From Flavobacterium sp. (GTDB lineage Bacteria; Bacteroidota; Bacteroidia; Flavobacteriales; Flavobacteriaceae): a stretch of DNA of 64,000 nt. The position numbers were made by a program, and so were the translations under genes. Location: the NCBI RefSeq assembly GCF_039595935.1, contig NZ_JBCNKR010000006.1:2018001-2082000 (forward strand), written 5' to 3'. Position 1 is the stretch's first letter, and each line of letters begins with the position of its first letter. Below, piece after piece: positions 4,174 to 25,026 of this stretch. The notes beneath the pieces were generated by a model, which made no database searches, was not told the origin of the DNA, and saw nothing but the letters and a program-made list of their open reading frames with translations.

Positions 4174-4641
4174 TTATTCTGTTAAGAGCTTTTTAATCAA
4201 TACAATTTGCCCTAAATGATAATAACTGTGCTCGATCATAGCGTCGATGTTTCTTTTATAAGTTCCGTATTTTTCGTCAACAAAAACCTCGTTTAATTTT
4301 TGTTCCGGCATTTTTTCAACGAAAGAAGCAAATTCTTCGGCAGCGTTCCAGAATTTATTTAGAAAAGAGTTCCATTCTTCTTGTGAATTGATAGGAGGAA
4401 AGTCAAAACTGAATTTGTCTTTTATATCTAAATTTCCACCTTTAAAAACAATATTTATTCCGTTGATGTAATAATGAATATGCTGCGCTAGAAGAGAAAT
4501 TGTGTTGAGGTTTTTTACCGGAGTTATCGCAATTTTCCAATCCAGATTTTCGAGCTGATGTTTGTAATTGGTATTGGCAATCCAGGTTCCGTTTAAAATA
4601 GTTTCTCTAAAACGATTGGCAATTTCTGTGGTGTTTTCCAT
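4174..4641 (-). CDS. DinB-fold protein (DUF1572-like)
   Basis: This 155-residue protein is all-helical with the three-histidine metal-site pattern of the DinB/YfiT superfamily: a His in LAQHIHYYING and two in the last helices (MIEHSYYHLGQIVLIK). The family includes thiol-dependent transferases and many proteins of unknown activity; this one has no obvious partner. A related but diverged DinB protein lies at 25767-26213. It starts 18 nt after the stop of the lipoprotein gene at 4660-5076, so the two are probably cotranscribed. Confidence 0.8.
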   Translation of the reverse strand: MENTTEIANRFRETILNGTWIANTNYKHQLENLDWKIAITPVKNLNTISLLAQHIHYYINGINIVFKGGNLDIKDKFSFDFPPINSQEEWNSFLNKFWNAAEEFASFVEKMPEQKLNEVFVDEKYGTYKRNIDAMIEHSYYHLGQIVLIKKLLTE

Positions 4642-4659
4642 AATCCGAAACTTTTTTAG

Positions 4660-5076
4660 TTATCTAATTACTATTTTATATTTCTGAGATGCACCTCTGT
4701 CGCACAAATTATCTTCATCCTCTTCATTATTAATATATCGGCGGACATATATTGTAACCGTAAATTCATAAGTTCCACTTTTGTTAGGTATTCCCTTAAA
4801 ATTTACTTTAGAATTATCGACAACACTGTAATTAATGCCAGGAGGAAGATTTCCGTCAATTGAAGCAGAAGAAATAATATACTCTTCTGTATTTCCTTTT
4901 TTTATTTCAAAAGTAATATTTTCATTATAAGCAATATAAGTTGATCCGGTGTATAATTCTTTATAAATAAGACTAGGTTTTTTATCAGTAATACAATCCA
5001 AAACCGTTTCGCAGCTTATAGACGTTAGTGCCAAAACGAATAAAAAAAGAGTTTTATAGACTGTATTTTTTTTCAT
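4660..5076 (-). CDS. Lipoprotein with Ig-like (He_PIG-type) domain
   Basis: This protein has 138 residues with a lipoprotein signal ending LTSISC. The mature part holds one Ig-like fold: the segment LPPGINYSVVDNSKVNFKGI followed by PNKSGTYEFTVTIYV is the hallmark of putative-Ig (He_PIG) domains, which bind partners on the cell surface. Two later Cys (NLCDRGAS and one near residue 28) may form a disulphide. It begins 1 nt after the stop of the upstream gene (5078-5527), so it is surely in the same transcript. Function is unknown. Confidence 0.7.
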   Translation of the reverse strand: MKKNTVYKTLFLFVLALTSISCETVLDCITDKKPSLIYKELYTGSTYIAYNENITFEIKKGNTEEYIISSASIDGNLPPGINYSVVDNSKVNFKGIPNKSGTYEFTVTIYVRRYINNEEDEDNLCDRGASQKYKIVIR

Positions 5077-5077
5077 T

Positions 5078-5527
5078 TTATGGTAAAAGAGTCTCTATTT
5101 TAGTTTCTGATTTTTCTCTAATTGGGCTGTCGGCACGAAAACTCCAAATGATTAGAAATTTTCCTTTTACAACATATTCTTCCGGGTGTTCATCAGTTGG
5201 CTGGCCGTCTTTTCCCCAAAGTAAACCTTGTAGAAAACGATCTCCTTTAAATACGTGATCAAATTCAAAATACATAATAGAACCGCGATCTGTTTTGTTT
5301 CTAAAACTTTGAATGGCTTTACTTTTTACAGTTCCCACAATATTGCTGTACGTTTCAATATCGGTATAAAAATTACAGGCCTGAGGTGTAACGCAAATAT
5401 TTCCGTCGTTAGGAATATAGCCTTTTGGAATTTCTTTTGGTTTTAGTTTTAAATCAGCAATTGTCTGGCTGAATGAATTGATAGTTAGTAATAAAAATAA
5501 CGCTGAGAGGGAAATCGTAATTTTCAT
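5078..5527 (-). CDS. Secreted protein of unknown function
   Basis: It is 149 residues with a clear Sec signal (MKITISLSALFLLLTINSFSQ). The mature protein has two closely spaced Cys (NICVTPQACNF) that may be disulphide-bonded or bind a cofactor, and beta-rich segments (SIMYFEFDHVFKGDRF, EYVVKGKFLIIWSF). I do not recognise a family. It is immediately followed (1 nt) by the Ig-like lipoprotein, so both probably work in the same compartment. Confidence 0.65.
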   Translation of the reverse strand: MKITISLSALFLLLTINSFSQTIADLKLKPKEIPKGYIPNDGNICVTPQACNFYTDIETYSNIVGTVKSKAIQSFRNKTDRGSIMYFEFDHVFKGDRFLQGLLWGKDGQPTDEHPEEYVVKGKFLIIWSFRADSPIREKSETKIETLLP

Positions 5528-23131: not shown

Positions 23132-23791
23132 TTAGAAATATAATTTCTTCTCTAAAAATCTCTCTTTAGCAAAACTTGCCAGAATATCATAAGCACTGGA
23201 TTCACTATCTTCATGATGTCTCCATATAAAATTAGCGTACCAATCAGCAAACCAGATCATTTTATTATTGGTACTTTCTACAAATTCACACGAAATATCA
23301 ATATTAATTCCATTTCCCCAGATTTCTGTTTTTATATAATCTGGAAAGCTCTGGCCATGGCTAACCTTTATAGTTCTTTTATCTAAAACAATTTCTACAT
23401 TATCATATTGAATGACTTCAGGCTTAAGTAATAATCCAAGTACATAATTGTAAAAAATTTTTTTATCTTTTCGTAATGAATCAAAAACTTTTAATTTATT
23501 TACCGTAATTGAAATTATTTTAAAGGAACTACTCTTTGCAATTATCTTATTCGTTATTTGCGAAGTAATAAAGGCACAATGTTCAGGAATAAAGTTTACT
23601 CCTTTTTTTTCAATATTAGGAGTCAGATTATATTTTTTGTAAATATCAGAGAGAAAGCGAGAAATATATTTTTCATCTTCATTAGAGATAATGAGAGCTG
23701 TAATGGTGATAAATTTACTTGAGCCGCCATGTCTGTTTGGTTTATCAAGCTTCCAGCCTAAATCACCACTTTCATCAATATATATTTTCAT
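23132..23791 (-). CDS. DUF3800-domain protein
   Basis: DUF3800 proteins carry an RNase H-like core with an N-terminal DESGD motif; here it is residues 6-10 (MKIYIDESGDLGW). Strand-like FITITALIIS follows, then an interior VEIVLDKRTIKVSHG with a second conserved Asp and ADWYANFIWRHHE, where a third acidic site would sit. At 219 residues it is a typical size. The activity is not established; a nuclease role is inferred from the fold. It is AT-rich and lies in an accessory pocket. Its ATG is 5 nt beyond the T-tract of a perfect terminator that ends a small RNA, so expression needs read-through or a second promoter. Confidence 0.85.
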   Translation of the reverse strand: MKIYIDESGDLGWKLDKPNRHGGSSKFITITALIISNEDEKYISRFLSDIYKKYNLTPNIEKKGVNFIPEHCAFITSQITNKIIAKSSSFKIISITVNKLKVFDSLRKDKKIFYNYVLGLLLKPEVIQYDNVEIVLDKRTIKVSHGQSFPDYIKTEIWGNGINIDISCEFVESTNNKMIWFADWYANFIWRHHEDSESSAYDILASFAKERFLEKKLYF

Positions 23792-23796
23792 GCCAT

Positions 23797-23821
23797 AAAA
23801 AAAAGGGCTAAGAAGCCCTTT
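23797..23821 (-). terminator. Perfect rho-independent terminator between the small RNA and the DUF3800 gene
   Basis: On the minus strand AAAGGGCT pairs with AGCCCTTT around a TCTT loop, then eight T. It ends the RNA at 23797, five bases before the DUF3800 start codon. Confidence 0.92.
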
Positions 23822-23914
23822 GGTATTTTAAAAATAGACCCTAAAAACGATGTATTCAAAATACATTTATGGTAGATGTTTCACCGCCACGTTGACTCAG
23901 GAATTACCTATCTA
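23802..23914 (-). ncRNA. Small structured RNA upstream of DUF3800
   Basis: A promoter (TATATTTG, 23921-23928) would start an RNA near 23914 that ends at the perfect terminator, giving a transcript of about 110-120 nt. Visible helices are ATGTATT/AATACAT (23850-23866), a GGTA/TACC pairing around 23872-23907, and the terminator. It contains no open frame. DUF3800-associated structured RNA motifs have been predicted computationally in other bacteria (established knowledge, recalled); I cannot assign this one to a named motif. The layout RNA-terminator-protein resembles type III toxin-antitoxin loci. Confidence 0.65.
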
Positions 23915-23920
23915 ATGGTG

Positions 23921-23928
23921 CAAATATA
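23921..23928 (-). promoter_or_regulatory. -7 promoter element of the DUF3800-linked RNA
   Basis: CAAATATA reads TATATTTG on the minus strand, an exact TAnnTTTG match. No TTG lies at the usual -33 distance, so the promoter may need help or be weak. Confidence 0.6.
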
Positions 23929-23968
23929 AGAATAAAAAATTAATAAATTTTATTTTGTAAGATTATTA

Positions 23969-24920
23969 TTAAATTTTAAAAGAATTTTGTTGAACTTCAT
24001 CTAAAAAACTCCATGCCACAATACGGCTATTTTTCTGTCCTTGAGACATTTCAATAGTTTTTACCGAAACAGCATTTACTTTTTTCAAAGTTTTGTAAAT
24101 CGAAGAAAGATTTTCTTTTTTAGAAACCAAAGTAGTGAACCACAAAACCTGCGAAGCATATTTTACGCTTTCGTAAATCATTTGCGTAATGAAGCCAATT
24201 TCACCGCCATTGCACCACAATTCAGCATTTTGTCCTCCAAAGTTTAAAACAGGATTTGAAGTTTTCTTTTCTTTTGGATTTAAATTCGAAACTTTTCTGG
24301 AAGTGCTTTTATTGGCTTCTTCTGCCGATGAATGAAAAGGCGGATTACACATTGTAAATGTAAATCGATCTTCGGGAATTATAATGTTTTTAAAAATAAA
24401 TCGGGATTCTGTCTGCTGTTGTAAACTGATTGCATCGATTAATTTCGGATTGGCTTCAATAATTTTGGCTGCAGTTTTCAATTGCTTTTTTGTCAATATC
24501 TGTACCTACAAAAGTCCATTTATAAATTGAATTTGCTAATATCGGATAGATCAAATTTGAACCTGTTCCGATGTCAAGTCCCATAACAGAATTTCCTTCC
24601 GGAATTTGATTGTTATTTGTTTCGGCTAATAAATCGGCTATATAATGAATATAATCGGTACGTCCTGGAATTGGCGGACAAAGATAATTTTTGGGAATAT
24701 CCCAGTTTTGAATGTCGTAATAAGTCTGCAATAAAGCTTTGTTTAAAGTTTTTACTGCAAGCGGATTACTGAAATCAATGGTTTCGATTCCGAATTTATT
24801 GATGGAAATAAAAGCTTTTAAATCTGGACAATTTGATATAAGAAGTTCAAAATCATATCGGTTACGATGAAGATTTCTTGGATGTAAATTTTCTTTTTGG
24901 GAATTGTTTTCTGCTTTCAT
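23969..24920 (-). pseudogene. rlmF: 23S rRNA m6A1618 methyltransferase, frameshifted
   Basis: RlmF methylates A1618 of 23S rRNA. The N-terminal half, start MKAENNSQKENLHPRNLHRN at 24920, carries YDFELLI and the SAM loop GLDIGTGSNLIYPIL. Its frame ends as FVGTDIDKKAIENCSQNY. The C-terminal half, in another frame, continues TAAKIIEANPKLIDAI, the catalytic CNPPFH, then LNFGGQNAELWCNGGE and SQGQKNSRIVAWSFL. The two frames overlap at 24456-24496, and removing or adding one base near 24470-24491 rejoins them (A6 run at 24486-24491). So it is a recent frameshift or a sequence error; all motifs are intact. Confidence 0.88.
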
Positions 24921-24937
24921 TTTTATTGATTTCTGTG

Positions 24938-24945
24938 CAAAGATA
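24938..24945 (-). promoter_or_regulatory. -7 promoter element of rlmF
   Basis: CAAAGATA reads TATCTTTG on the minus strand, 18 nt before the chosen start at 24920. It supports that start over an upstream Met at 24986, which would lie beyond the promoter. Confidence 0.55.
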
Positions 24946-25026
24946 GTTATTCCATTTTTGGAAATAAATCTTTGCGTAAACCGCATTGAAATCCGGCTCT
25001 ACAATATAAACCAAGCTTATAGCTCT

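Follow-up and report, generated by a model that had tools for sequence, protein, structure and literature searches.

We have analysed a 64,000-nucleotide stretch of Flavobacterium DNA (the window) in which a short structured RNA lies directly ahead of a DUF3800 gene. Our comparisons show that the RNA accompanies one DUF3800 subfamily and its distant relatives in three phyla, Bacillota being represented by one plasmid, that the RNA structure is under selection and that the RNA can sit on either side of the gene. On the basis of this analysis, we consider that the pair probably forms a type III-like toxin-antitoxin module, in which the RNA is a single unit and whose nearest parallel is AbiF/RCd22. 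If this is true, an RNase HII-type enzyme joins the RNA-controlled toxins. The DUF3800 RNAs have so far been catalogued predictions, and the literature passages available to us give no function for them. With this study, one DUF3800 subfamily gains a supported RNA structure, a predicted fold of the partner protein and a genetic prediction, namely that the gene is lost before the RNA.

RNA, terminator and protein at the window locus

The first-pass annotation had described a promoter element, a structured RNA, a terminator and the DUF3800 start codon 5 nt further on, and the sequence and a terminator scan bore out this order (Table 1). The promoter element, TATATTTG, is of the TAnnTTTG type, which is the consensus of the Bacteroidota -7 element; elements of this type occur 105 times per 128,000 strand positions in the window. 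In 14 of 15 Flavobacterium loci the -7 element lies 7-11 nt ahead of the RNA's TAGGTAAT, and the single locus without an exact element (L009) has one T fewer. The terminator hairpin AAAGGGCTTCTTAGCCCTTT (23821-23802) has 8 pairs and a 4-nt loop, its T run reaches 23797, and 5 nt separate its end from the ATG at 23791. A T7-T8 terminator is present in all 15 Flavobacterium loci; two of these, L281 and L004, probably come from one strain, and G685 is without the gene. A two-codon ORF (ATG GCA TGA; window 23796-23788, minus strand) follows the terminator and overlaps the DUF3800 start codon; it is not retained in every relative. In its own genome, the RNA and the DUF3800 gene each occur once, and the covariance model R2, built from 14 RNAs, places the RNA core at 23828-23915 (C6:2041828-2041915, 88.3 bits).

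Table 1. Features of the locus, with positions counted from the first letter of the window
Feature	Position	Strand	Basis
-7 promoter element (TAnnTTTG type)	23921..23928	-	sequence; recurs in Flavobacterium loci
Non-coding RNA gene, ~120 nt	23797..23915	-	start inferred from promoter element, end from terminator
P1, 5' strand	23908..23913	-	helix 1 of alignment A6, double changes at 6/6 pairs
P1, 3' strand	23832..23837	-	helix 1 of alignment A6, double changes at 6/6 pairs
P2a, 5' strand (CCTGA)	23897..23901	-	double changes at 2/5 pairs
P2a, 3' strand	23840..23844	-	double changes at 2/5 pairs
P2b, 5' strand (AACG)	23890..23893	-	double changes at 4/4 pairs
P2b, 3' strand	23846..23849	-	double changes at 4/4 pairs
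P3 arm; closing pairs 23889-23887 with 23872-23870	23870..23889	-	double changes at 2/3 pairs
P4 hairpin; 23866-23860 with 23856-23850	23850..23866	-	double changes at 4/7 pairs
Intrinsic terminator between RNA and DUF3800 gene	23797..23821	-	terminator scan; Flavobacterium loci 15/15
DUF3800 gene, 219 aa, predicted RNase HII-like nuclease	23132..23791	-	intact ORF, Pfam

The proof of the RNA comes from conservation and covariation, not from fold energy. Single-sequence folding is only mildly unusual (z -1.85, with 11 of 200 shuffles equally good), and a terminator scan of 7 kb around the locus is not above shuffles (5 found against 4.0 expected). In alignment A6 (14 RNAs), on which the structure itself was drawn, 93.9% of the cells of the five helices are paired and double changes occur at 18 of 25 pairs, compared with 29-43% paired when the partners are slid by 1-3 columns; RNAalifold, run unguided on A6, returned identical helices and one further pair. 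Covariation in P2a is also seen inside Flavobacterium (CCTGA/TCAGG versus CCTGT/ACAGG). When 49 RNAs (48 distinct cores and the window) were aligned by fitting to the structure, so that the alignment leans to the model, 93.5% of the cells were paired, with compensatory double changes at 20 of 25 pairs, a covariation score of 0.626 against 0.267 for shuffled alignments and 32-41.5% paired cells in the slid versions. Covariation was measured by pair counts, RNAalifold and our own mutual-information scan. In the last of these no pseudoknot was seen: the seven top covarying column pairs are helix pairs and the eighth is a P3b pair (36-53); signals outside the helices, for example 36-94 and 54-94, are weaker.

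Across the family the terminator is either a hairpin of its own, whose sequence varies, or consists of a T-run behind P1 itself. Some form of terminator was found for 35 of the 48 distinct RNAs (32 script matches, minus 4 reaching into coding sequence, plus 7 T-runs right after P1 recognised by eye). None is evident before the gene in the other 13, and the terminator as a universal feature was rejected.

The window RNA has no match to a DUF3800 family in Rfam even at E 10, and a relaxed Rfam scan of the RNA region gave weak matches to unrelated families only, e.g., STnc50. At gathering threshold, no DUF3800 family was found in 38 loci scanned (9 + 20 + 9). Below it, the RNA of an Acinetobacter pittii plasmid (L017) matches DUF3800-III (22.7 bits, E 0.0034, gathering 43.8) and DUF3800-I (18.3 bits), and that of a Thiothrix plasmid (L016) matches DUF3800-I (25.5 bits, E 0.027, gathering 44.2) and DUF3800-III (16.1 bits). 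In the cmscan alignments, L016 has in common with DUF3800-I (RF02969) the P2b-P4 heart (UAAGCGU..U.UAA..ACG.CGG), its P4 hairpin being the part that aligns, and with DUF3800-III (RF02962) the P1-GUAA-CCU start. Both Rfam families are linked to DUF3800 by name, and the scores of the relatives are far under gathering. The DUF3800 RNAs were reportedly named in a 2017 paper. The link to these earlier predicted RNAs, which had been drawn at first reading, is thus seen as sub-threshold matches in relatives, and we read the window RNA and its relatives, from their sequences, as a branch, not registered in Rfam, of a single DUF3800 RNA superfamily. The only match at gathering in the window is an L19-Flavobacteria ribosomal leader (RF03130; 32996-33023, minus strand, 44.2 bits).

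Pfam DUF3800 (PF12686; E 2.9e-12, 47.9 bits against a cut-off of 21) is the sole Pfam match of the protein, whose closest named relative is from F. defluvii (95% identity); a PDB sequence search with it gave nothing useful. The AlphaFold2 model on 33 sequences (pLDDT 91.2, pTM 0.88) matches RNase HII/HIII folds best, with 1eke_B found by Foldseek at E 2.3e-6 (TM 0.53) and superposed at Z 11.9 (rmsd 2.9, 161 aligned). Argonaute and RNase HI rows are lower (Z about 7), as are PIWI and IsrB chains (Z about 6-7.5). The RNase H-like fold assigned in the first-pass annotation therefore agrees with the predicted model, which matches RNase HII best. The RNase HII-like fold has four catalytic acids, DEDD; D6, E7, D137 and D183 are invariant in the 33 sequences (alignment A8), as sequence positions rather than as a superposed geometry. 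From the model, the DUF3800 protein is predicted to be an RNase HII-fold nuclease. PADLOC did not recognise the window protein, and PDC-M04A, which we take to be a "phage defence candidate", did not match it at E 1; the same PDC-M04A model matches the DUF3800 proteins of L016 (E 7.7e-10) and L059 (E 2.7e-7). In the passages available from PMC10910872, DUF3800 is predicted to have an RNase H fold with catalytic rearrangement.

Distribution of the RNA and fate of the gene

Conservation of the RNA upstream of other DUF3800 genes, which the first-pass annotation had proposed to look for, is present in this subfamily: in 10 of 10 named relatives, found by protein, the RNA lies directly upstream of the gene. 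The 77-nt RNA core is 86-99% identical in 12 pairwise comparisons, and in the same comparisons the stretch preceding it is 54-94% identical; by contrast, within the first 100 codons between 4 of 29 and 18 of 23 four-fold degenerate positions are different, a divergence of up to 78%. Of 398 Flavobacterium genomes, 10 carry the RNA; 9 of these 10, and no others, carry the protein. The other DUF3800 subfamilies of the genus gave no RNA at the 29 loci examined, out of 49 other Pfam DUF3800 matches in 249 Flavobacterium genomes, and in those 249 genomes model R1, built from Flavobacterium RNAs alone, found six RNAs only, all gene-linked. From these sequence searches, the RNA seems to be known for one DUF3800 subfamily only. 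With R2 and stricter filters, the RNA was found in one of 395 Bacteroidota genomes.

Beyond Flavobacterium, a tblastn search turned up DUF3800 relatives with ~25-39% identity in 16 records of plasmids and 3 of phages. The analysis covered two of the three phage records, and a homologous RNA was recognisable by eye in the upstream DNA of the first nine records examined. R1 locates the RNA of the Thiothrix plasmid at the correct place (E 0.012 in 167 kb). Of 76 DUF3800 loci in viral contigs, R2 detected the RNA ahead of the gene in 75, and the remaining one (L064) starts 16 nt from the end of the available DNA; the 75 loci represent 33 distinct cores, and 35 loci share one core. It also lies beside the gene in all 12 plasmid records examined of the 16, with a low score in a Rhizobium record (22.7 bits). 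Throughout the genome, viral and plasmid loci, no intact subfamily gene without the RNA was found (9/9 with it among the 398 Flavobacterium genomes). A scan of the viral contigs for the Flavobacterium RNA heart found none. One viral contig (L068, 2392-2472) has a Bacteroidota-type promoter, TTATCTTTG; in appearance its RNA stands between the Flavobacterium form and the proteobacterial one, making the contig a candidate vehicle between phyla. On the A. pittii plasmid, a reverse transcriptase family gene (4425-5321) lies 0.3 kb from DUF3800, and another plasmid has a protein kinase gene at this position.

In two distant relatives, whose proteins fall outside the DESG[DC]LGW motif, the RNA is downstream of the gene. 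On a Paenibacillus plasmid (L298), the RNA (42.1 bits, E 1.9e-11) occupies 1947-2032, behind the gene at 1228-1887; a TTTACA-18-TAATAT site ends 4 nt ahead of the RNA, and a terminator follows the RNA. On viral contig L013, the RNA at 2463-2547 (19.2 bits, E 7.5e-4) lies behind the gene and begins 3 nt past a TTGACA-18-TAAGAT site; a terminator-like hairpin is visible by eye and was missed by the scan. R2 found no upstream copy of the RNA in either, and promoter-like sites overall in the two regions were not above shuffles.

The RNA also occurs at loci whose gene is disrupted or absent. In the tenth RNA-bearing Flavobacterium genome (G685, locus L288), the RNA and its terminator are intact, DUF3800 is absent and an antitoxin-like ORF comes next. 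Intact RNAs stand before broken genes in L007, L010, L020/L124 (one plasmid), L125 and L133, the gene of L296 is in two pieces behind an intact RNA, and that of G121 (seemingly L009) is frameshifted. The frameshift cases and L007, which is a MAG and has an intact close relative in G156, could be sequencing errors. Pattern scans of viral contigs, four in all, yielded 106 contigs. Among the 104 that were examined, the gene lies within 400 nt in 70 and is missing from 33, and one contig ends too soon. R2 matches 22 of these 33; the 11 without a match (L198-L201, L207, L209, L211, L213-L216) were dropped, L177 and L180 were dropped as well, and R2 was run on 19 of the 54 contigs of one scan. A fifth scan, with R2 matches in 2 of 9 contigs, added L277. 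This makes 23 viral contigs with an orphan RNA in eight groups: L169, L178, L181 with L191, L192, L206, L250, L277 and the L226 type (n = 15).

All 15 L226-type contigs carry one identical RNA, truncated at the 3' end, without the P1 3' strand and without a terminator, and the RNA is fuller in L250. The same gene (82-100% identity; cut by the DNA end in L257) stands behind the RNA in these 15 and in L250, and Pfam, run on L226, identifies it as a Panacea-domain antitoxin. This SocA/Panacea-domain gene lies right after the RNA in L226 (1159-2192) and 15 similar Acinetobacter-type viral contigs; a putative partner ORF follows it in L226, possibly forming a new Panacea toxin pair. In L181/L191 the RNA is identical to that of L078 and is followed by a KilA-N gene (Pfam on L191). 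The RNA and terminator are retained in L206, where the gene is broken after a few codons and an Abi_2/AbiD gene lies further along. The L226-type and L181/L191 orphans may be recent remnants because their RNAs are truncated or identical to others. The RNAs of L169 and L192 have just 78-79% identity to any of the 48 gene-side cores. Seven distinct orphan RNAs (L277 and G685 left out) have 88.9% of the helix cells paired.

The module of the window and of ten named loci lies between rlmF and either an abhydrolase gene or uvrB. At this site, sister genomes L137 and L138 have neither the module nor another gene, L135 has a ParE-type toxin-antitoxin pair (2019-2700, between rlmF and uvrB), and L136 (2022-2449) and L288 (1168-1419, minus strand) have an antitoxin-like ORF alone; the ORFs of these three are antitoxin-like by position only, the Pfam match of L135 to APC_15aa being uninformative. 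Remnants of a ParE-type pair are visible by eye right ahead of the RNA promoter in L009. The rlmF-like gene beside the window module (23969-24986, minus strand) is in two overlapping frames of 176 and 175 aa and is a single open frame of roughly 310-365 aa in most relatives, so the split would be a frameshift or a sequencing error.

Proposed mechanism and competing readings

In the module that we favour, a separately promoted and terminated RNA of ~120 nt would be paired with an RNase HII-fold protein, which would be produced by occasional read-through. The RNA, which we infer to be transcribed separately and to be in excess, would fold into a P1-P2-P3/P4 three-way junction and bind the protein in trans, holding the nuclease inactive. 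If the RNA supply stopped, as in phage take-over or plasmid loss, the protein would be freed and could act on cellular or phage RNA as a toxin. Carriage on small plasmids and in viral contigs and the predicted RNase HII fold with its invariant acids speak for this module; the absence of tandem repeats in the RNA, the 13 RNAs with no evident terminator and the non-recognition of the window protein by PADLOC speak against it.

A trans-acting partner is favoured over a 5' leader because two distant relatives have the RNA behind their gene, because the RNA outlives the gene in Flavobacterium, plasmids and phages and the reverse was not found for an intact subfamily gene, and because a ParE-type pair or a Panacea-antitoxin gene occupies the position of the gene in sister genomes and phages. 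Losses that strike the gene and not the RNA are what one would expect of an RNA with a protective role against the protein, and from this pattern we suggest that the RNA restrains the enzyme much as an antidote would. The first-pass annotation had proposed that the RNA either inhibits the protein or sets its read-through expression. The inhibitory part stands as our preferred reading, and the purely cis-acting read-through part is unlikely, considering the downstream and gene-less RNAs and the distinct RNAs before which no terminator is evident. That the RNA acts as an attenuator or riboswitch, a 5' leader controlling DUF3800 transcription or translation in cis, is very improbable. Such a leader would fit the upstream position and the terminator of the window and most relatives, but not the RNAs of L298 and L013, those without a gene, or terminators that differ from one another, take the form of a T-run after P1 or are not evident; pairing between RNA and terminator, as in an antiterminator, lies outside the reach of our alignments, which end before the terminator.

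The RNA might instead activate the enzyme as the scaffold or cofactor of a DUF3800-RNA ribonucleoprotein effector in defence or RNA processing, in the manner of omega RNA or crRNA with other nucleases of RNase H fold. The strict linkage of gene to RNA and their free order fit a ribonucleoprotein, PIWI and IsrB chains rank further down among the fold matches, and a Cas12a2 branch is linked to TPR-DUF3800 in the passages available from PMC10910872. However, the RNA has no guide-like variable segment, the Flavobacterium RNA being nearly invariant, which led us to reject a guide-RNA reading, and RNA without the gene in several lineages would be unexpected, although gene loss may be recent. We consider an activating role unlikely. 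It is very improbable that a housekeeping RNA-processing enzyme, outside any toxin system, uses the RNA as its physiological substrate or as a guide. The RNase HII fold would suit such an enzyme, and the literature passages available to us that name DUF3800 do not call it a toxin, or more specifically an RNA-controlled toxin. On the other hand, the patchy presence in Flavobacterium and Bacteroidota genomes, on which this reading was rejected, the carriage by plasmids and viral contigs and the repeated gene breakage speak against it.

The toxin-antitoxin reading has its closest counterpart in AbiF/RCd22 of a Clostridioides difficile prophage, where, in the passages available from PMC12373285, the RNA neutralises the toxin by RNA-protein contact. 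As described there, an RNA of ~100-130 nt with its own promoter and terminator lies upstream of the protein gene, is co-transcribed with it by read-through and is prophage-borne. The two systems differ in that the protein there is of the Abi_2/AbiD-F type and here has DUF3800 as its only Pfam match, that the RNA there has two short motifs, and that the function is shown there and inferred here. Type III toxin-antitoxin systems (ToxIN, CptIN, TenpIN, AbiQ) have the same order of promoter, RNA, terminator and nuclease gene, which is seen with RNA and terminator in the window and 14 other Flavobacterium loci. In contrast to them, the DUF3800 RNA may sit downstream of its gene, and the protein has a predicted RNase HII-like fold, unlike ToxN/AbiQ-type proteins. 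Tandem Repeats Finder reported nothing in the RNA region (window 23780-23990), confirming the absence of tandem repeats noted at first reading; a single-unit RNA and another protein fold uphold the earlier view that the locus is not a direct ToxIN homologue. TPR-DUF3800 beside Cas12a2 shares the predicted RNase H fold but has a CRISPR context and TPR domains, and its authors mention an earlier link of DUF3800 to ncRNAs (PMC10910872, in the passages available). With PADLOC's PDC-M04A the likeness is seen in relatives L016 and L059 and not in the window protein.

We further propose, more tentatively and as a possibility that we hold somewhat short of probable, a separate RNA-antitoxin class: an RNase HII-fold toxin with a three-way-junction, single-unit RNA on either side of its gene, which phages and plasmids would have distributed among Pseudomonadota, Bacteroidota and Bacillota and whose solitary RNAs would be kept by phages and chromosomes as decoys or as anti-addiction protection. 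An antitoxin RNA borne by a phage is known for ToxIN, the pseudo-ToxI of PhiTE (PMC3475682), and the solitary phage RNAs may therefore be decoys. Together with the small, clonable locus, these solitary RNAs make the antidote model readily testable.
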